The notes under the pieces were generated by a model. It was given only the letters and a program-made list of their open reading frames with translations, made no database searches and was not told where the DNA came from. The position numbers and the translations under genes are program-made. A stretch of DNA of 64,000 bases from Ulota crispa (taxonomy: Eukaryota > Streptophyta > Bryopsida > Orthotrichales > Orthotrichaceae): the NCBI GenBank assembly GCA_963920765.1, contig OY987242.1:28792002-28856001 (forward strand), in the 5' to 3' direction. Positions 2,602 through 57,410 of the stretch are shown here, piece by piece (within the stretch, counting starts at the first letter, position 1; each line of letters begins with the position of its first letter).

Positions 2602-3529
2602 AGTACAGTGGCCTCGAACAAAGATTGTCGGGCCTTGTATTTGCATTGAGAGGTCATGTCAAACATGACACAGAAATGAGGTCAATTGGCCACTTTTTTT
2701 TCTTGTATTTTTTATATCCCATTCTTGCCCCCAATCCCAACTAAGCATACCAAATTTCAACTCCAAAAGATCAAAATCCAAATTTTGATAAATTGTTTTG
2801 TGCCACAAATCATGGTTTTACAAGAAAATTGATTGAAAAACATTGATGATGAATTTTGGAGATTTGATTGCATGGATACAGAGGTAGCATCTATATGCAC
2901 ATCCATATGCAAATCTTCCATGCTAAAGAAAATCCCTTAAGTAAACCAAAATTAATCTTTGAAGGGTTTAGTGTGACCCGTGATATGTCCAAATTTTGTT
3001 AAACATATGTTTTTAATTTTTAGTTAGTTTTTCACCAAAGAAACACAATAGCATGTTCAAAGGTACAATCTTAGTATCAATGTAAGAGTTAAATAGAAAA
3101 AATTGGTTATCATAAGAAAATATATATTTTACAAAATTTGGACATATCACGAGTCACACTAAACCCTTCAAAGATTAATTTTGGTTTACTTAAGGGATTT
3201 TTTTAGCATGGAAGATTTGCATATGGATGTGCATATAGATGCTACCTATATACCCATACAATCAAATCTCCAAAATTCATCATCAATGTTTTTCAATCAA
3301 TTTTCTTGTAAAACCATGATTTGTGGCACAAAACAATTTATCAAAATTTGGATTTTGATCTTTTGGAGTTGAAATTTGGTATGCTTAGTTGGGATTGGGG
3401 GCAAGAATGGGATATAAAAAATACAAGAAAAAAAAGTGGCCAATTGACCTCATTTTCATGTCATGTTTGACACGACCTCTCAATGCAAATACAAGGCTTG
3501 ACAATCTTTGTTTGAGGCCAATGTATAGT
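2602..3529. mobile_element. FB1: long foldback element with about 400-bp arms
   Basis: The left arm (about 2602-2999) and right arm (about 3129-3529) are near-perfect inverted copies, separated by a spacer of about 130 bp. The outer ends read GTGGCCTCGAACAAAGATTG and the complement of CAATCTTTGTTTGAGGCCAA. Small frames within the arms are by-products. Similar arms occur singly elsewhere in the window. Confidence 0.9.
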
Positions 3530-4254
3530 ACACTACTATGACTCCTCCTTGACCAATAGCACATTTGCACTCTAAAATTGGAGAACTAGAAATTCATAAA
3601 GCCAAACAAATACAAAAATACACTCAGAATATATAAGAGCCCTATTCAATAAATTGGGTTTAATAAGTTTATAGATTCATGAGTAGTACATTAGTAACAA
3701 AGTTTAGTGTTATGATACTTATAATGTCATCTACCCTAACTCCTATCATTCAATTCATTTTTATTTTCATTTAATTGAAAAATTGTGTTCATGTTGACAA
3801 TCAGGATGAATGTTGGGTACTACTTTAATGCATGCTAAACTATTGTGATACTTATTCAAAAAATTAATGAAATTTTAGTTAACAAATAATGTTCATGTTG
3901 ACATTTAGTATTGAAGTTCATAGTTGGTGTTGGCAACACTAAATTTCATTACTAGTGTAGTGATTTCAAAGTAGAAATATTTCCCACTTTGGATTGATGA
4001 AGCACGTAATGGAACATGTGCACTAGCCTCCAAACTATCCACTTGAAAAACGTAGTGTAAGTCAAAAAGGTAGTGTACTTGATTTCTCACCTCATCACCT
4101 ACATGCAATTATATTTTTTTGGAATTGTGAATTTAAGATTGGTTGACAAATGAACTTGTTACTGTTATTGGATAAATGTTGTGTGTCCAAATCGGCAAAT
4201 TTAATATGAAGAAAATATTTAATTTAAATTGATTTGTATGTAAACAAATTATAA
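3530..4254. other. Unassigned AT-rich DNA
   Basis: No gene. The motif TGTTCATGTTGACA occurs at about 3786 and 3889, a weak direct repeat about 103 bp apart. Confidence 0.45.
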
Positions 4255-5493: not shown

Positions 5494-6145
5494 CAAACCC
5501 CTAAATGCCCAAGGCACCACATTTTGGTGCCAACAATATTTTGAAGTTCAATAAATTATTGCTAAGCTGCTATTTTTAGTATTTAGTATTTTAGGATGAT
5601 TTCTTTTGAAGTCTAGTTCTAGCATCAAAAATCCAATTTTGAAAATTATTAATTGTGAATTTTCAATTCAAGATTTTGTGCAAGGGTGTCCATTGCAAGC
5701 TTGACTTTTTTAGTGTTGAGAGCTCATGAAAATGAGCCTCAAATACACTAGATCTTGGAGAAAGATTCATATTAGAAATTCATTTTAAGAAATTGTAAAA
5801 GAGATTTTGAAAAGCCATAAATGGATTGGAGTTATGTATGTTATGTCCTTTAACCTCATATTTTTTGGTGATCAACATTTTAGATTTGAGATATGAAAGA
5901 GGATTCAAAGGCTTGAAGTCATTCTTTCAATTTTAACACCCTCTTAATTAAACATTATAATCTTTCAATCCATAAGCAGTATTGTTATGTTTTCTTTTCC
6001 TATGTGATGTCTAACATATCTTGTTTGAATTTGTACAGTTACAATTTTTAAAAAATTAATATAACTTACCAAATTGTTGGCTTTTTGATCAGTTCAAGGC
6101 ATAGTTCTAAAAGTTCAAAAAAGGCCTTGGGCATTTAGGGGTTAA
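5494..6145. mobile_element. B1: TTAA MITE, family B, 652 bp
   Basis: The left end CCCCTAAATGCCCAAGGCAC (from 5498) is preceded by CAAA instead of TTAA. The right end is CCTTGGGCATTTAGGGG then TTAA (6142-6145). The end sequences match B2 and B3 but the interior is shorter and divergent. Confidence 0.7.
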
Positions 6146-6792
6146 AGAATATGAGTAAGAGTGTTGAGTTGAGTAAAACTTGACAATTCGTTTCCAAATT
6201 GTTGCTAAGAAATTGCTGTTCTTTAATTGAATCGATTGATGCGGTTTTGGATGTATGGTTTGTCTAAGCTTTTTGTTTGAATTTGGGCTACACAAAACAC
6301 TAAAGGAAATCTCAATGTTTAGGTAAAACATCATAGAAGCAAATTATTAAAAGACCTTCTATTAAATTTGGAAAGTAATGGAAAATATCCGAGTACGTAT
6401 GCAAAATATCCATAAAACCCTCTCCCTCTCTTGTTTTGCATATGTCTTCTAAAAATAGAACTGGATTATGATTTATGGACTTTGAAATAACCAAAATTGG
6501 TTAGGTGTGGCTTGTAAACCTAGTGGATAAGGATCTAGGTGTTTTATCTTTTAAAAAATTGTGCGATTGGTACTACAAAGAAACATTCCAAATTGGGATT
6601 TTAGAGATATAAAAAACATCAATCATGATTTGCTTTAAACTGTTGGAAATCAATCAAAGTTGAGGGGCGAAGAATTTTACCCACCCACGTTGAATTGAAA
6701 GAAGTCATATTGAATTCAAGTGTGAGTTTCTAACCTAGTTCAAGGTGAAGTAAAATGAAGTGGAATTTGGGATCAAAGGATAACCATGCATA
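6146..6792. other. Unassigned AT-rich DNA
   Basis: No gene or repeat family recognised between B1 and D1. Confidence 0.5.
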
Positions 6793-7238: not shown

Positions 7239-8156
7239 TTAACCCCTAAATGCCCAAGGCACCAAATTGTGGTGTCCAAAAAATTTCAAGAAACTTTGAA
7301 ACCCCGTTGAGAGCATAGATTTTATTGTTTTCAAGTTTTTTTTTTGGAAAAGTTGCACGCTAAAGTTGGCTTCACCGTTCAAATTCAACTTCCTCCGTAT
7401 CTTATTCGATTTAATTTTGGTGGAAGGTTAACTACAAGCATACATTTTCTATTATGAATAGTGTCGTGAATAGTGTCATGAATAGTGTCACAGAGCCTAT
7501 GAGAAGTTGCCACATTGAAAGACAGGCATCAAGTTCAGCAAAAGGTGAAGATTTCCCTTGGGCACTCCCTTGGGCAATAAGGGCCTTTTTACTGAAATTT
7601 TGACATCTAACAAAATCTAAAAGTGATGTCAGACTAATTTCACTTGGAATGTCTTTGTTATAGAAATTAGGATCCTTTCACCGTTGAATTTTCTTTCATT
7701 CATTATGATTCTTGGTCAATAATTGAGGTTGAAAATTTCTTTGTATTAGGATGTTGCATTTTGACAGTTGCGTTGTAGGCTCATTTGTGAAATTGTGGTC
7801 ATGGATTTGGAAGAGGGGCCATTGGTTCTGAAGTAACAACAATAAACACTAAAGCATCCTACGTGGTTGTTTCCTAATTTTGTATCCAAAAGTTGCCAAT
7901 TTGCATCAGAAGTTTTGGGCAGCTCCAAAAAAAGCAAAAAAATCCATAATCATCATCATTCAATCACAAATATTTTCAAATTGGCATGGCCATTTTGGAT
8001 TCTTTTTGGGTAGTGCCATCTAGAAACCTTGAAGTTCAAGATTCAACGGTTACAATTTTGTTTTGATGTTTAATAATGATCTTACAAATACGATTTAAAA
8101 ACCTTCAAAACTACCTTCCAAAAACGAGAAAACACCCTTGGGCATTTAGGGGTTAA
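7239..8156 (+). mobile_element. B2: TTAA MITE, family B, 918 bp
   Basis: The left end is TTAACCCCTAAATGCCCAAG followed by a subterminal GGCACC...GGTG palindrome; the right end is CCCTTGGGCATTTAGGGG plus TTAA. The interior holds three 12-bp units close to GAATAGTGTCRT (7458-7490). B3 at 49.9 kb is a full-length copy in the opposite orientation. No transposase frame is visible; a 63-codon minus-strand frame (7746-7937) is unrecognised. Confidence 0.9.
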
Positions 8157-8238: not shown

Positions 8239-9162
8239 TTAACCCTTAGATGACCATTGTCCCTTTGTAGGACAAATGGGAATTTGGTCATGTACCTATA
8301 GCTAAACTATTTTGTGTGATTTTTTGAAATTTTCATGAAAAGTGGGGAATTCAATGACTTATGTGGGTATTTAATTCTTTCTTCATTTTGATATTTAATG
8401 AAGTAGTTATGCACAAATATATCAAAACATGGCTAGAAGGGGCAGTTTGTGCAAGGCCTCTCCTTTGTAAGTGGGCGTTGACTCAAAAATAGGTCAGCCC
8501 TTACATGCACAACTTGTGGACACTTGAGCAAAGGGGAGTGGAGCAAAAAGAACCCGTCTTGGGAGACCCCCAATCCTCTATTCTTTTTGCCCCTCGTAAT
8601 AATTGGTACTTTAGTTTTTTAAAGCAATTTGTGTAGTTTTTTTATTAACTTGTATTTTTTCCAAGCTATATTGGGCTAAGAGTCCTTGCTTTTGACTGTT
8701 TAGATTACTATGATTCAAATTTTTGAATTGTACACGAATCCTCGAATTTTGCCTAGTGTATTTGCAAATTTCAAGACCTTCTAGCACTCAAAGATTTTTT
8801 GAAGTATGTTGTACACCTCTTATTCATTTGAAAATTCTACTTGACTTGGTCTTCTACATGGAGCAATTAAACCTCGACTTTGTGTGGAGTAATTTTTTTG
8901 CTATAGGAGTTGTCAAAGGCCTCTAAGTTAGTTGGGCAAGAGTGGAAAAACAAAAATCTTCACTAGAGATGTCAATATCTCACTCCTCTCCTTCTAAATT
9001 GGGCTGATTTTTGTTCTACAAGGTTCCTAATGTAATCTTAGCAAGATCCTATGCTTGAATTTTCAAGAAAATCTGTTTTTCCTACCTTTTTACTCATTCC
9101 CCTAAAAACGGCAATTTTTAGTGACTTTCACAAAAAAAAAGCCTTGGTTTTTTAGAGGTTAA
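8239..9162 (+). mobile_element. A2: TTAA MITE, family A, 924 bp
   Basis: The ends are TTAACCCTTAGATGACCATT and TTTTTTAGAGGTTAA. The subterminal hairpin TTGTCCCTTTGTAGGACAA is typical of the family's left end. It is full length and collinear with A1. Confidence 0.9.
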
Positions 9163-9414: not shown

Positions 9415-10364
9415 TTAACCCCTAGAAGACAATTGTCTGTTCAACAGCGAGTTGGAAGTTTGGGTACGTTCCTATGAAGTTTAATTTTGACGGATGTTTT
9501 TGAAATTTGGAGACAAGGTGCACACAATAAACGCCTTTGTGTGGAAAAAAAAACGTTGATCAGATGTTGGAATAAAATGTTATGATGTCCAAAAGAATTT
9601 GGGCACCTTGGGAAGTTTGGGCATTTTTGGAGAATTTTATGCTTAAACTCTCGTTAACTTTTGAAACTTGGCATATATGTAACTAATAAAATATCACTAT
9701 GACTGTCAAACAAAAGAAATGAGCTCACAAATCATAGTCTAAGAGGAGTCACTTTGTTAACTATGTCCATGTGGTTTCAAGAAAAAATAGTTTTTTCTAA
9801 CTTCAAGCCCTATTATCTTGCATTCCATAAATTCAAAGTTCTTGAAACTTTTTTCACATGTTTCAAATGTTTGCCTCTAACTTTCCACCACTCTAATTTC
9901 ATATAATAGACTTATTCAATGCACAAGAAATTATGAAGTAACAACTAGTGTATTGCCAATTCACTAAACCTCTTTGCATAGCAGGGTGATTTAGAATAAG
10001 CTAGATTCTACATTTGCTTCTAATCATTTTCATGAGTTGACCTAACATCATATTCTTGTGAAGAGTCAAAAAATTTGTTTTTATGTAGAGCAAAAAATTT
10101 ACTTTAGGAGGGCTCAAAAGTCTACTGATCTTATTTTGCACAAATGAAAAATAATTGTTTTTCTCACTTCAAATGTTATAACCTTATAATCTACGCGGTC
10201 AAATGGGCTGAAGTATTTCTCACACATTCCCTTACTTGTATATTACACTTCCATTCCGTATGGTTGAAACTATTAAAAAAAATTGAATTTCAAACAAATC
10301 ATCCCTAAAAATGGCAATTTTGATTTTATTTTCTCTGCAACATCCTTCGGGATTTAGGGGTTAA
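9415..10364 (+). mobile_element. C1: TTAA MITE, divergent subfamily C, 950 bp
   Basis: The left end is TTAACCCCTAGAAGACAATT; the right end is CCTTCGGGATTTAGGGGTTAA minus its first base. The layout resembles family A (a subterminal TGTC...GACA element and an AAATGGCAATTTTGA block near the right end), but the sequence is clearly diverged. C2 at 22.7 kb is a partial relative. Confidence 0.85.
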
Positions 10365-11697
10365 TAGGTTGAGTTGAAATGACCTCTTCATTGCCCCCCC
10401 ACATGGATGAATGGAACCAGGAGCTAGGTCAATTGTTTTCTGAGTTTGTGGGGCCACAGTTTAACCCCTAAAGGATCAAGCCCTTTTTTGTTTGAAAATC
10501 ATTGAAAATTGTCACTTTTGGGGGAATGAGTAGAGAAGTAGGAAAAAAGGTTTTTTTGGAAATTCAACTTTAAAATCTTGCCTTGGATTATGGGAGGTAC
10601 TTGTGGGAAAACATTTAGCTCATCCTAGAAGTAGACAATTGAGATATTGACATTTGAAGTGATTTTTTTATTTTTATTTTTATTTTTAATTTTCCCTATT
10701 GCCCAAAAATTTCAGAAGCTTTCGATTGCTCTTATATCAAAAAAGTTGCTCTATGCAAAGTCGAGGTTTAATTTTTCCATGGTGAAGACCAAGCTAGGTA
10801 TGTGTGGGAGAATTTTCAAATGAATTGGAGGTGTGGACCATACTTTGTAAAATATTGCAATGTTGTAAGGCCATCAAATTTGCATATACACTAGGCAAGA
10901 TTGGAGGATTTATGTAAAATTGAGAAACATGAGTTACTTTTATCCAATGGTGAAAACCAAGGAATCTTAGTCTACTACAACTTAGAAAAAAAATTAATTA
11001 ACTAATTAATTAAAGCACCAAATTTTACAAGGGGCAAAAGGAATGGAGGTATGGGAGTTCCATACGTGCCCGCAAACTAAAACTTCTCACTCATCAATCA
11101 AAATTGAATGATCAAAACTTTCCACATATATAAAAATTTAAAGAATCAATTTTAGATTTTTATTTTTTTGAAAAGCAATTTTTAAAGAAGTTTTTTGGAA
11201 TGCCTAGATTGCCTGGATTGCCAGCCCTCCCCCGTTTTTCAAAAATTCATGCATAACTTCTTCAATAAATGTCAAAATGAAGAAAAAATTAGATGTGCAC
11301 GTACATTTTTGAATTCCCCACCAACCTCAAAAGTTTCAAAAATTCATAAAAACTAGTTTAGTCATAGGTACATGCCCAAGATCCATTTGTCCTCCAAGAG
11401 GAGAGTTGGTCCTTTAGGGGTTAAATGCTTTGCTTTTCCTCTTTCAAATATTTTAAGAGTTCAGAAAAATACCACTAGAAGACCAAATTTTGGGATCTTG
11501 AATTCAAATTAGGATTCAAAAACCATGATTTGGGTGAAGAAATATGGGAGGGGATAAAATTGTCCAACTCCTGAAGAAGGACAAATTGCAGTTAATTGTA
11601 AAAAACTGAAACTTTTCATCCTAACCCAAAAACACAAAAAACGCCTGATAGACAAAGCTCTTGGCCTTATTCATCCAAATGGGGGGCAAAGTGAGGG
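10365..11697. mobile_element. E1: family E element interrupted by A3
   Basis: The left part (10365-10460) carries CTTCATTGCCCCCCCACATG; the right part (11425-11697) ends with ATTCATCCAAATGGGGGGCA in the opposite sense. That is the inverted CATTGCCCCC/GGGGGCAATG end pair of family E. A3 sits between them. The outer boundaries are approximate. Confidence 0.6.
10461..11424 (-). mobile_element. A3: TTAA MITE, family A, 964 bp, inside E1
   Basis: It starts TTAACCCCTAAAGGATCAAG and ends GGTCCTTTAGGGGTTAA. The interior is the reverse complement of A1 and A2. TTAA is intact on both sides. Confidence 0.92.
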
Positions 11698-12630
11698 TTA
11701 ACTTGTAAAGGACGTTGTCCCTACAAGGGACAAATGGGATTTTAGGCATGTATCTATGGCTAAACTACTTTTTGTAGTTTTTGAAAATTTTATGTAAGAT
11801 GGGGAACTCAGATATCTACATGGGCATCTAATTTTTTCCTCACTTTGATATTTGACAAAGAAGATATGCAAGAATTTTTGCAATCCAGGGGGGAGGGCAA
11901 TATGGGCAGTCCAAAAACTTTTTTAAAATTTACATTTAAAAAAAATTAAAATCTGAAATTGGTTCTTTAGATTTTTTTTGATACGTAGGAAGCTTTGAAT
12001 CATTCAATTTCAATCAATGAGATGAAAGTTATGAGATGTTTTAGTTTGTAGGCAATCACGGATCCTCTACTCTAAAATTAACTTTGAAGTCTTTTATTTT
12101 CCACAATTTTCAATATTTTGGAATAAATACTAAACTTAAGGAATTAGATTGTTTTTACAACATCATATGCATTGGAAATTGTATTTTTCATTTTAATAAT
12201 GATATTCTTAACAATTTAGTGACTTGACCCATTCTCTACTTCTTTTTACTTACTACTTTTTTCCCATGTGTTGTATAGTTCCAATTGATTTGAAAATTCT
12301 ACCACAAAAGCCTAACTTAGTTTTCTACATGGAAAAAATAAACCTCAACTTTGTGTAGAGCAATTGTTTTCATGTAAGAGTGGTCAAAGGCTATAAATGT
12401 TTTGGACAGCATGGAAAAAAACCTTCACTTCAGATGTAAATACCTCGGCCCTCCTCTCCATGTAGAGTGCCTTGATTTTTTTCCCACAAGTACCTCTTCC
12501 AGTCTAAGGCAAGATCCTACAGTTGGATTTCCCAGAACAAAACAAAAAAACTCTACCTTCTTACTCATCTCCTAAAAGTGGCAGTTTTCAATGATTTTGA
12601 CAAAAAAGAGCTTGGTCCTTTAGGGGCTAA
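11698..12630 (+). mobile_element. A4: TTAA MITE, family A, 933 bp
   Basis: The left end is TTAACTTGTAAAGGACG; the right end is CTTGGTCCTTTAGGGG followed by CTAA instead of TTAA. The right boundary is shared with the start of D2, which may explain the altered base. Confidence 0.85.
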
Positions 12631-31045: not shown

Positions 31046-32139
31046 CTCCCCTTGTGAGGTTCCTTGTTAACCCCTAAAGGCCCAACTGTCCCCCTGGGGA
31101 CAAATGCATTTTGGGCATGCATCTATAGTTAATTTAGTTTTTGTGATTTTTTTAAACTTATATTGAAGGTGGGGAATTTCAAGACCTACTTGGGTATCTA
31201 ATTTTTTTGTCATTTTGACATTTGACGAAGAAGTTATGCAAGAATTTTTGCTGCCCGCGGAGGGAGGGGCGGACAGCCCAAAAACTTCTTTAAAAACTGC
31301 ACTTTCTAAAAATAGAAATCTGAAATTGGTTTGTTTGATTTTTTCATATGTGGGAAGTTTTGAATCATTCAACTTCAATTGATGAGATGAAAGTTATGAG
31401 ATGTTTTAGTTTGTGGGCAATCACGGATCCTCTACTCTAAAATAAACTTTGAAGTCCTTTATTTTCCACAATTTTCAATGTTTTGGAATAAAAACTAAAC
31501 CTAAGGAATTAGATTGTTTTTTAGAGCATTATAGGCATTGGGATTTGCATTTTTCATTCCAATAATGAAATTCTTAACAATTTAGTGATTTGACTCATTC
31601 TCTACTTCTTTTTACTTACTATTTTTTTCCTATGTGTTGTATAGTTCCAATTGATTTGAAAATTCTACCACAGAAGCCTAACTTGGTCTTCTACATGGAA
31701 AAAATAAACCTCAACTTTGTGTAGAGTAATTTTTTTCATGTAGGAGTGGTCAAAGGCTTTTGAAATTTACTAGCAGCAAGGAAAAAAACCCTTTTTTTCA
31801 CTTTAGATGCGATTACCTCCCTCCTCTCCATGTAGAATGACTTGATTTTTTCCCACAAGTACCTTTTCTAGTCTAAGGCAAGATCCTACGGTTGGATTTG
31901 CAAAACAAACTTTATTTCCTATTTTTCTACTCATTCCCCCCAAAGTGGCAGTAAACAATGACTTTCACTAGAGAAAAGGGCTTGGGCCGGGTTAAAATAG
32001 GGTCTTTGAATCCAAATCTAAATTCAAATTTCTCAAATTCAACATTTTAATGATATGTTTTTTTGTGAAAAAATTCACTCAAACCCCACAAACTTGTAAA
32101 GGATTAAACCAGACCTAGGCCCAATTCATTTAGGTGGTG
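31046..32139. mobile_element. E4: family E remnant carrying A7
   Basis: The short left part (31046-31066) and the longer right part (31996-32139) together align with the middle of E2 (about 30784 onward) and E3. It is fused to E2 on the left and E3 on the right, so the three look like an array. Confidence 0.5.
31067..31995 (+). mobile_element. A7: TTAA MITE, family A, 929 bp
   Basis: The left end is TTAACCCCTAAAGGCCCAAC with a perfect subterminal palindrome TGTCCCCCTGGGGACA (31087-31102). The right end reads GGGCTTGGGCCGGGTTAA, with the usual TTTAGG lost. A 103-codon minus-strand frame (31067-31378) is repeat-derived and not a gene. Confidence 0.85.
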
Positions 32140-32750: not shown

Positions 32751-34591
32751 TTAAGCCCTGAAGGATGGCGGCCTTTATTTTGTCAAAAGACACTCAAAAC
32801 TGCCATTTTTATGGTAAAGAGTAAAAAGTTTGAAAAGTGGTCATTTAATATATTTAATCATAGGATTTTGACCTAAAGTAGTATAAGAATGTGTAAAAAA
32901 ATTCAAAAACTCCTACCGCATAGATTATAAAACATTTGCTTTTAACCCCTAAAAGCCCAAGTGTCCCCTGGGGGACAAATGGACCTCGGGCATGTACCTA
33001 TGACTAAACTAGTTTTTATAATTTTTTTGAAATTTTTGTGAATGGTGGGGAATTCAAAGATGTATGTGCACATCTAATTTTTTCTTCATTCCAATAATTA
33101 TTAAAGAAGTTATGCATGAACTTCTGAACAACAAAAGAGGGCAGGCAGTCCGCGCAGCCCAAAAAACTTATTTAAAAATTGTATTTTTTAATTACAAAAA
33201 AATCTGAAATTGGTTCTTTTTATTATTATATATGAGGAAAGCTTTGAATCATTTGATTTTGATTGATGACTGAGAAGTTTTAGTTTGCGGGTAGGTATTG
33301 GATTCCCAAATCTCCATTTCTGTTGCCTCTTGTAAAATTCTGTGCTTTAATTTCTTTTTAGCTTTTTTTTTCCAAGTTGGAGTAAACTAAGATTCCTTGG
33401 TTTTCACCATTTGGATTAAAGTAATTTAGAATTCTCAAATTTACATAAATCCTCCAATTTTGCCTAGTGTATAATTATGCAAATTCCATGGCTTTACGGC
33501 ATTGCAACATTTTACAAATTATGATCCACACCTCCAATTCATTTGAAAATTCTCCCACACTTACCCAACTTGGTCTCCTACATGGGGAAAATGAACCTCA
33601 ACTTTGCTTAAAGCAACTTTTTTGATATAGGAGAGGTCAAAGGCTTCTAAAATTTTTGGGCAGCACAATTTTTTTTTAATTTTTGCACTTTAGATGTCAA
33701 TATCTCACTCCTGTACATCTAAAATGAGCTGATTTTTTTTGCAAGTACCTTCCATACTCTAGAACATGATCCTACGGTTGGTTTTCCAAAACAAACTTGT
33801 TTTCCTACTTTTATACTCATTCCTCCAAAAGTGGCAGTTTTCAGTGACTTTTACAAAAAAAAGGGCCTGGGCCTTTAGGGGTTAAAGTGTAAAGTTTTTT
33901 TTTGCGCCTTGCAAGACTAGACTATTTGACATTGAATTTTTTTAACTTAATTTTTTTGCACCACATAGCTTGGAATTTAAATCTTTTTGGTGGAAAATAG
34001 TGTTAAGAATTTTTGGAAAAAAATTAAAACAAAAAATACTAAAAAATAGGTAGAAGAAGGTATGAGATTGAACAAGAACTTGATTTATTAATAACCATTC
34101 AATGGATTTGAAACACAATAATTCCAATGATAAGATTGCTCTAGCAAGCAATCTTCATCCCTTCCAACAATTTAAAAAAAAAAATGTTAAACTTGCATTC
34201 AGAAATGAACTCTTTAAGTTATTTTTTTCAAAAAGATGCTTAAATTGCCCAAAAAACAAGATTGTCCATAACTTGCTCATAACTAGTCCAAACGGAATGA
34301 ATAAAAGCTGTAGATGTAGACAAAAATATAATCTATGACCCAAAAAAAATAGAAAAAAAAGTCAAATTTTTGTAAAATAGTTTATGCTACCTGGTCTCCC
34401 CAAAATTGTGCTTATTTGGGCTAACTTTTGCTACCAAACATAGATTGGAATAAAAGTTATATTCCCCTAAAGCTAATGTGTTTTTCAATCTTTGAAAAAA
34501 GTTTAATAAAATCAAGATAAAAATTGGGGCCATATGTACTTGCCCAAAATCCTACTTGTCCCCAAAGGGACAATAGTCCTTTAGGGGTTAA
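32751..34591. mobile_element. I1: family I TTAA element carrying A8
   Basis: The left end is TTAAGCCCTGAAGGATGGCG, the right end ATAGTCCTTTAGGGGTTAA. Without A8 it is about 900 bp and collinear with I2 (926 bp). Shared interior phrases include GGCCTTTATTTTGTCAAAAG and CCCAAAAAACAAGATTGTCC. Confidence 0.9.
32942..33885 (+). mobile_element. A8: TTAA MITE, family A, 944 bp, inside I1
   Basis: It begins TTAACCCCTAAAAGCCCAAG and ends GGGCCTTTAGGGGTTAA. TTAA occurs on both sides, whereas the matching site in I2 has one TTAA. Confidence 0.95.
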
Positions 34592-34789: not shown

Positions 34790-35752
34790 TTAACCCCTAA
34801 AGACCCAAGTTTTTTTTTTGTGAAAGTCACTCAATATTGCTAGTTTTGGGGGAATCAGTAGAAAGGTAGGAAAAAAGATGTTTCTAAAAATCTAACCCTA
34901 GAGTCTTGCCCTAGACTGTGAGAGATACTTGTGGGAAGAAAACTAGCTCATTCTAAACATAGAGGAGAGAGATATTGATATCTGAAGTGAAAAAGAAAGT
35001 TTTTTTCCCAGCTACCCAAAACTTTTAGAAGCCTTTGACCGCTCCTATATCAAAAACTACTTTACGCAAAGTTGAGGTTTACTTTTTCCATGTAGAAGAC
35101 CAAGTTAGGTAAGTGTGGGAGAACTTTCAAATGAATTAGAGGTGTGAATCATACTTTGTAAAATCTTGCAATGCCATAAGGCCATGAAATTTACACATAC
35201 ACTAGGCAAAATTGGAGGATTTATGTAAAATTCAGAAATTTGAATTACTTTGATCTAAATGGTAAAAACCAAGGAATCTTAGTGTACTACAACTTGGAGA
35301 AAAAAAGAGTAAAAAAAAATTCACAAAGAGCTCAAAAAAGTAAAGTACCAAATTTTACAAGGGATAAAAGGAACGGAGGTTTGGGAGTCCCATACCTACC
35401 CGCAAACTAAACCTTCTCATAACTTTCATCTCACCAATCAAAATTGAATGATTCAAAGCTTCTCACATATATATAAATCTAAAGAACCAAATTTGGATTT
35501 TCATATTTTAAAAAAATGCAATATAAAAAATAAATAAATTGGGCTCCTTGTCCTCCTTTGTTTTTTCAGAAATTTGTGCATAACTTCTTCAATAAATGTC
35601 AAAATGAAGAAAGAATTAGATGCCCACATAGGTCTTTGAATTTCCCATCTTCTATAATTTTTTTAGAAAATCACACAAATTAGTTTAGCTGTAAGTACAT
35701 GCACAAAACCACACTTGGCCCCCAAGGGGCCACTTGGGTCTTTAGGGGTTAA
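34790..35752 (-). mobile_element. A9: TTAA MITE, family A, 963 bp
   Basis: It starts TTAACCCCTAAAGACCCAAG and ends GGGTCTTTAGGGGTTAA. It is collinear with A3 and A5 and opposite to A8. The far-end hairpin (TTGGCCCCCAAGGGGCCA) is well formed. Confidence 0.93.
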
Positions 35753-48963: not shown

Positions 48964-49889
48964 TTAACCTGTAAAGGACCATGGCCTTTATTTTGTCAAA
49001 AGATACTCAAAATTGTCACTTCTATGAAAAAGAGTAAAAAAGTTTGAGAATTAATCATTTTGTATATTTGACCATAGGATCTTGTACTAGACTAGTATAG
49101 GAGATTATCATACAAAACTCAAAAACTTTGACAGCACATATTGCAAGATAATTGTTTTTAAAGTGTAAAAAACAGCTTTTATTGCACCTTGCCTAATTAG
49201 ATTATTTGACTTTGAATTTTTTTAACTTAAATTTTTGCACCACAGAGTTTGAAATCCTATTTTTGCATGGTGGGAAGTTGAGTTGGTAATCTTGGGAAAA
49301 AGAAAATAACAAAAAATAATAATTCATTCTTTAAAAAAAACATTAGGTAGAAGCAGGTATGAGATTGAACAAAAACTTAAATTGCTAATAACCTTGCAAT
49401 GGAATTGAAACGCAATAATCCCAATGGTGAGATTGTTCTAAAAACAAACTTTACACTCTCAAACAATTTTCTTTGAAAAAATGTTATACTTGCATTCAAA
49501 AATGAAGTTTATAAGTTATTTTTTCAAAAAGATGCTTGAATTGCCCAAAAAACAAGATTGTCCATAACTTTCTCATAACTAGTCCAAATGGAATGAATCA
49601 AAGCTTCAGATGTAGACAAAGATATAATCTATGAGAAAAAATAAAAATAAAAAATTTCAAGTTTTTATAAGAATTTTTTTTGCTGCCCAGAGTCCCAAAA
49701 TTTATGCTTATTTGGGCATAACTTTTGCTCCCTAGCATCAATTGGAATAAAAATTAGGTTCCCCAAAAGCTAATGTGTTTTTCAATCTTCAAAAAAAGTT
49801 TCAAAAATTAGGACAAAAATTTAGGCTGTTGGTACCTGCCCGAAATCCCATTTGTCCGTTGAACGGACAAGTGGTCCTTTAGGGATTAA
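48964..49889. mobile_element. I2: family I TTAA element, 926 bp
   Basis: The left end is TTAACCTGTAAAGGACCATG; the right end is AAGTGGTCCTTTAGGGATTAA without its first base. It is the uninterrupted counterpart of I1. Its right TTAA (49886-49889) is shared with B3. Confidence 0.92.
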
Positions 49890-50808
49890 CCCTAAATGCC
49901 AAAGGGTGTTTTCCTTGTTTTTGGAAGGTATTTTTGAAGTTTTTGAATTGTCTTTGTAAGATCGTTATTAAACATCAAAATTAAATTGTAACTATATGAT
50001 CTTCAACTTCAAGGTTTTTAGATGGTATTACCAAAAAATTCTCCAAAAAGGTCTTGCAAGATTTAAGATATTTGTAATTGAATGTGGATGAGTATGGATT
50101 TTTTATGGTTTTCTTTTAGCTGCACAATTTTTTTTAAGCAAGAATGGTAAATTTTGAGTACAAAATTGGGAAACAACCACTTAGGATGCTTTAGTATTTA
50201 TTTTTATTACTTGAAAACCAATGGCCCCCCTTCCAAATCCAAGACCACATTTTCACAAACAAGCCTCCAAAGCAACTACCTACTACAAGGAAATTTATTA
50301 GCTTCAATGATTGACCAAAAATCCTTATGAATGAAAGAAAATTCAATGGTGAATGAATTCGAATCTTTATAACAAAGATGTTCCATGTGAATTTAGCCTA
50401 AAAGCACTTTTAGATTTTGTTAGATGACAAAATTTCAATAAAAGGGCCCTTATTGGCCTAAGGGAGTGCCTAGGGGAAATCTTCACTTTTTTCTCAATTT
50501 GATGCCCATCTTTTCAATGTGGCAACTTGTCATAGGCTATGTGACACTATTCACAACACTTTTCATGATATAATTCATGACACAATTCATGACACAAAAA
50601 GTATACTTGCAATTTAGCTTCCACCAAAAACAATTGGAATAAGATATGGAGGATATTAAAATTGAACGCTGAAGCTAACTTCAGTTTGTAACTTCTCCAA
50701 AAAAAAACTTTAAAGCAATCAAATCTATGCTGGCCTTCCATAGGGCTTCAAAATTTCCTAAAATTTTTTGAACACCAAAATTTGGTGCCTTGGGCACTTA
50801 GGGGTTAA
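49886..50808 (-). mobile_element. B3: TTAA MITE, family B, 923 bp
   Basis: The left end is TTAACCCTAAATGCCAAAGG; the right end is GCCTTGGGCACTTAGGGGTTAA shortened by its first two bases. It is the full-length reverse complement of B2, including the repeated ATTCATGACAC units. Confidence 0.92.

Positions 50809-55025: not shown

Positions 55026-57410
<2,385 letters not shown>

Follow-up and report, generated by a model that had tools for sequence, protein, structure and literature searches.

A non-coding element, A8, was found nested in a second one, I1, at a duplicated TTAA target, and a paralogue of I1, designated I2, carries a single TTAA at the corresponding point in the same window (the whole stretch of 64,000 nucleotides that was analysed). 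Together with a comparison with longer, transposase-bearing copies elsewhere in this moss genome, this makes it very probable that all three are non-autonomous members of the piggyBac superfamily of cut-and-paste DNA transposons, I1 having inserted first and A8 later by way of a transposase supplied in trans. This supports the original prediction about the three elements and adds the superfamily, which it had left unnamed.

The mechanism and the kind of transposon are already known; less ordinary are its host, its abundance and the diversity of its palindromes. Most knowledge of piggyBac, which is in wide use as a tool for gene delivery, comes from animals, above all from insects and bats. A passage in one article states that it was isolated from plants too (PMC10813416), and a table in a fern study lists 1230 PiggyBac copies amounting to 122 kb (PMC6890710). 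In the literature on plant piggyBac or TTAA elements and on moss genomes, in which subscription journals are thinly covered, no report of piggyBac in a moss was found; the two 'piggybac' matches in a Niphotrichum paper proved to be the word 'piggybacking'. The genome analysed here is that of a plant with over a hundred transposase matches and very many non-coding partners.

Nesting of A8 in I1 and the elements of the window

I1 and I2 could be aligned from end to end, with A8 as the sole large interruption (Table 1). The prediction that they are paralogous elements was borne out by this pairwise alignment, in which the sequence flanking A8 on both sides matches I2. The target duplication claimed for A8 was likewise present, as two TTAA copies in I1 against one in I2, and the boundaries of A8 coincide exactly with that single TTAA, which confirms the nesting. 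Only its location needed correction: the range first given for it, 49145-49160, is about 10 bases too low, and the 16-base string that was quoted for I2 is actually found at 49155-49170. I2 is a paralogue at another place and not the allelic empty site of I1.

Table 1. Positions of the elements, target sites and palindromes discussed in the text
Feature	Position	Strand	Remarks
I1, outer non-autonomous TTAA element	32751..34591	-	901 bp without A8; palindromic end is the right one
A8, inner non-autonomous TTAA element	32946..33881	+	936 bp (944 including both TTAA); palindromic end is the left one
Left TTAA of the A8 target duplication	32942..32945		Sequence and I1/I2 alignment
Right TTAA of the A8 target duplication	33882..33885		Sequence and I1/I2 alignment
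A8 subterminal palindrome, TGTCCCC-TG-GGGGACA	32962..32977		bp 17-32 from TTAA
I1 subterminal palindrome, TTGTCCC-CAAA-GGGACAA	34556..34573		bp 15-32 from right TTAA
I2, A8-free paralogue of I1	48964..49889	-	Alignment, DNA search
I2 single TTAA at the point matching A8 in I1	49158..49161		Sequence, alignments
I2 palindrome core, minus strand TGTCCGTTCAACGGACA	49853..49869		bp 17-33 from right TTAA
I3, element of a different TTAA family	49886..50808	-	Abuts I2; matches both ends of e12
A9, A8-type relative directly right of I1	34790..35752	-	Sequence comparison
W1, I3-type element	7239..8156	+	Right 553 bases 84.7% and left 114 bases 76.3% identical to e12 ends
Run of five elements	7239-8156, 8239-9162, 9415-10364, 10461-11424, 11698-12630
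Split A8-family copies	G000:C2:32818887-32820110; C6:21228401-21229709; C7:6636380-6637688

Twelve elements of the window measure 901-964 bp (mean 932, SD 19), and I2 and the A8 group have little in common beyond their ends. A8, I1 and I2 contain no open reading frame of at least 100 amino acids, and the DNA searches with I2 and A8 returned 40 scored candidates each, most of them near full length. Elements of this type are therefore MITE-like, being short, present in many copies and lacking coding capacity. Genome-wide, 13,446 matches with at most one mismatch were counted for the 20-bp end TTAACCCCTAAAGGACCANG and none for the pattern read in reverse, so the motif is not a product of chance; as an element may bear two ends of this type, the figure is not an element count.

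Several arrangements were noted beside these results. Between 7239 and 12630, five TTAA elements lie nearly end to end, with 82 to 273 bases between neighbours. I2 directly adjoins I3, and the two have one TTAA in common (49886-49889), which is the arrangement expected from insertion of one element into the other's terminal TTAA. Three A8-family copies are split by inserts of approximately 275-360 bases with query overlaps of 8-9 bases, suggesting that the inserts may be another type of transposon that makes 8-9 base duplications.

The empty site and the order of the insertions

None of the 17 other I-type copies in the alignment, of which I2 is one, contains A8; being the best matches of two DNA searches, in which whole-length alignment favours uninterrupted copies, these give no estimate of how frequently the site is occupied. 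They comprise I2, seven of the eight loci from the I2 search and nine of the ten from the search with the right part of I1, the one locus omitted from each being the window itself. The TTAA at the A8 point was intact in 15 of the 17 copies, again with I2 included, and the remaining two read TTTGAA (L004) and TTCAAA (L058).

The private divergence, as calculated by a three-point comparison with Jukes-Cantor correction, was 0.121 for I1 (against eight relatives, with L053, the most diverged one, excluded), 0.061 for A8 (against five relatives) and 0.049 for I2 (against seven). The lower value of A8 compared with I1 indicates that A8 came later. The predicted order is thus established by the nesting and independently supported by the divergence, which makes the nested pair a clean relative date. 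If both elements evolve at one rate, A8 would be about half the age of I1, which fits the nesting.

An empty site has to be read with care. For the insect element, piggyBac excision is described as seamless, leaving no scar (PMC7351741), so a single empty copy by itself is no proof of a pre-insertion state. One could thus suppose that A8 was ancestral to the I family and that I2 and the other copies lost it by such excision. This is so improbable as to be nearly negligible, considering that every one of the 17 aligned copies is empty, that the filled copies which were fetched hold differing elements in differing orientations, and that A8 is less diverged than I1. That the I-type site was empty before A8 arrived follows from the 17 empty copies together with the differing elements at the same TTAA elsewhere.

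These filled copies were found with a junction pattern for the target TTAA of A8, which gave 2167 matches in the genome versus 70 for the control. Ten matches were fetched, comprising all six perfect ones and four with a single mismatch. In six of the ten (L077, L078, L079, L081, L082 and L085), the left part of an I-type element ends exactly at the TTAA and another TTAA element starts there, while the other four (L080, L083, L084 and L086) showed no I copy at this site. The I-type sequence picks up again at the second TTAA in all but one of the six filled loci. The exception is L085: its insert is followed by about 550 bases that do not match I, and an I-type right part starts at C5:21258798, 8 bases outside the fetched region, which means that further sequence intervenes. 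Diverse guests were found: those of L077 and L079 are of the A8 or A9 type, that of L082 is of the W6 type in the opposite direction, and that of L081 is itself an I-type element, i.e., I inside I. The guests of L078 (240-974) and L085 (236-960) carry the palindrome-bearing A8-type end on both sides, inverted, which is a fold-back form.

These loci also bear on the possibility that A8 entered an I-type element elsewhere and that the resulting 1841-bp composite then moved to its present place as one unit. In principle this is conceivable, as the ends of both elements are of the piggyBac type and the outer pair, that of I1, could mobilise the composite. However, among the fetched loci, L077 and L079 have an A-type guest oriented like A8 inside an I copy, and these guests are only 71-79% (L077) and 74% (L079) identical to A8, which means that the two loci are not copies of the I1-A8 composite; the private divergence of A8 is, moreover, half that of I1. 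Joint movement is consequently unlikely compared with the direct insertion of A8 into a resident I1.

With a tighter junction pattern (at most one mismatch), 11 matches were obtained at the TTAA at position 195 of the I family, one at position 418 and none at position 259; with at most three mismatches, the numbers for 195, 418 and 259 were 136, 45 and 95 (controls 1, 5 and 8). Because the pattern for position 259 was set with one T more than the consensus and the copies are unevenly conserved, these counts no more than suggest a possible target preference for position 195. Separately, at G000:C1:13210128-13211603, an I-type right part lies about 720 bases from a junction match, and on the coordinates alone this looks like a further I copy that was filled at that TTAA.

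Transposase-bearing relatives

A search of this genome (275 Mb, 157 contigs) with PF13843, the piggyBac-type transposase model, gave 528 candidates, of which 116 were scored, corresponding to at least 120 matches; stops are present in most of those listed. The same search of 14 control genomes gave no match. Among ten transposase loci that were inspected with wider flanks, four (e09, e14, e12 and e11) have an end pair with a TTAA on both sides. Two more follow by homology: e18 follows e09, its left TTAA not being intact, and e22 follows e12, with the right TTAA not found. In e19, e20, e41 and e42 no end pair could be made out, none being convincing in e19 and e20; in L041, the left end is doubtful. 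Of the end motifs near the L042 transposase, the right one belongs to a separate non-coding element that matches 9415-10362 of the window, for which reason L042 was dropped.

The two most informative copies are e11 (C7:11814404-11822436, 8033 bp, TTAA at both ends, holding a further non-coding element) and e12 (C5:10867266-10873011, 5746 bp). The left end of e11 is 90% identical to the left end of A8 over 40 bp and 84.5% identical to the right end of I1 over 58 bp, and its right end is 84.5% identical to that of A8 over 58 bp, so the likeness is confined to short stretches at the ends. Its flanks match an I3-type element to the left and right of a single TTAA (identities of 76% and 80% to e12, over 100 and 123 bases respectively); a TTAA target duplication is thus also found for e11, within an I3-type element. 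The ends of e12 match W1 (Table 1) and I3 (576 bases at 76.5% and 138 at 72.7%). The idea that e12 is W1 with an inserted transposase element was rejected, as the right break has no TTAA and 251 bases of W1 between the matching parts are unmatched.

Open pieces of both copies match PF13843. Against solved structures, e11 aligned with the Trichoplusia ni piggyBac transposase 6x67 (E 1.8e-17) in such a way that the TIDE, LDNFFSS and GVDVADQ motifs of e11 fall on what we take to be the catalytic aspartates of 6x67, and the best match of e12 was piggyBat 9c0f (E 1.7e-16). Cysteine-rich tails are visible in the frames of both, and none of them was matched by a Pfam model of its own. The terminal inverted repeats start with CCC beside the TTAA, as do the tips of T. 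ni piggyBac; the ends of A8, e11 and e12 begin with CCCC, with single copies departing from this (GCCC at the left end of I1, CCTG and TCCC at the ends of I2).

TTAA duplication is common to piggyBac, Kolobok and Sola3 and on its own does not separate them, which leaves room for an assignment to one of the latter. Given a PF13843 transposase within TTAA-bounded copies with matching ends and a palindrome that is placed as in piggyBac, such an assignment is highly improbable, and we retain piggyBac.

Two further observations concern the interior of these copies. A long simple repeat whose frames read HTYI repeats lies inside e11 (L011, approximately 3031-3650), and an inverted-repeat stretch of about 400 bases at 5907-6322 of e12 (L012 and its flanks) matches e42 and, in part, 31993-32055 of the window.

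Subterminal palindromes and comparison with known systems

In 14 of 17 elements (W1, W2, W4, W5, W6, W7, A8, I1, A9, I2, I3, e11, e09 and e18), one end has a palindrome whose axis lies at bp 23-25, counted from the TTAA, and which in I2 extends over bp 12-38 as a whole; the element-by-element scan found no clear palindrome on this axis in W3, e12 and e14. The scores are only 4-6 in several elements, and those of W1, W4, e09 and e18 (4-5) are common in interior stretches. A position-free test reached a score of at least 5 in 29% and at least 7 in 4% of the interior stretches, so the scores alone are weak and the signal is carried by the fixed position. At their other ends, W2 and W6 have a dyad at axis 33 with a score of 7, which is as strong or stronger and speaks against a strict one-end rule, and weaker dyads occur on further opposite ends.

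The position was also assessed on a larger sample, which consisted of 123 ends from the window and the fetched loci within two mismatches of TTAACCCCTAAAG, with both ends of each element counting, and from which 77 were kept after those at least 80% alike had been removed. Self-complementarity had its maximum at axis 25 (counted in bp from the TTAA), where 13 of the 77 ends formed six or all of the seven possible pairs; across axes 35-90, the number of such ends averaged 0.32 and never exceeded 2. At axis 25, the 77 ends together formed 226 of 539 pairs, while shuffling of the right-hand letters gave a mean of 141.8 and none of the 5000 shuffles reached 226, a statistic in which relatedness among the ends remains. 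Axes 24 and 26 were raised too (z 4.2 and 5.9; control axes 35-79, z at most 2.22). Across the 13 palindromes, the letters vary on both arms, e.g., TGTCCGTTCAACGGACA, GCACCACATTTTGGTGC and GGGCGATAATATCGCCC; they covary between families at a constant place.

This place aligns well with what is described for T. ni piggyBac, in which the palindrome bound by a dimer of the C-terminal domain occupies bp 17-33 of one end (PMC7351741); the palindromes observed here can thus be regarded as putative binding sites of this domain. The insect element (6x67/6x68; PMC7351741) further resembles those of the moss in its TTAA target, in transposase similarity across the catalytic motifs and in the same place of its left-end palindrome, at bp 17-33. 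It differs in that its palindrome is described at both ends, while here it is on this axis at one end, and in that the moss elements have a plant host, palindrome letters varying by family and, in the window, no coding content. In Myotis lucifugus piggyBat (9c0f; PMC11707139), whose transposase resembles those of e11 and e12, an imperfect palindrome occupies bp 19-30 of the left end with none at the right, which is similar to the present elements; its left end has three spaced palindromes, and our scan covered the first 100 bases of each end. Coral MITEs from two genomes (PMC2872659, in which piggyBac is mentioned 57 times) are likewise non-autonomous and have an animal host.

Taken with the known mechanism, these features suggest how A8 would have moved. 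After I1 had inserted, a piggyBac-type transposase would have joined A8 to an internal TTAA of I1, duplicating it. Its source, acting in trans, would have been a longer relative that shares these ends and lies elsewhere in the genome, an e11-like copy most likely, which presumes past or present activity of such copies. The transposase of this copy would have attached to an A8 element at its tips and palindrome and cut it out, with the catalytic core acting on both tips and the cysteine-rich C-terminal domain gripping, as a dimer, the palindrome near one end in the asymmetric complex known for piggyBac. More tentatively, there may have been a moss piggyBac radiation in which each family has its own 17-bp palindrome paired with a diverged C-terminal domain, so that the families would not recognise each other, and in which non-coding members were repeatedly hit by other families at a TTAA serving as a preferred target, namely TTTAAA at I-family position 195; we hold this to be possible rather than probable. 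Varied palindromes at a constant place offer natural pairs of binding site and protein with which the reading of DNA by the C-terminal domain could be tested.

As would be expected of a land plant or a close relative, the genome contains LEAFY-type sequence, with six matches above the cut-off and 103.6 bits for the best, LEAFY not being known outside land plants and their algal relatives; the low G+C is in keeping with a moss. The window also contains a dihydrolipoamide dehydrogenase gene at 55026-57357 on the minus strand, in at least two open stretches. The closest solved structure to its part at 55026-56321 was dihydrolipoamide dehydrogenase 1dxl (600 bits), presumably the pea enzyme, followed by chains at about 450 bits, which we take to be those labelled mitochondrial and human.
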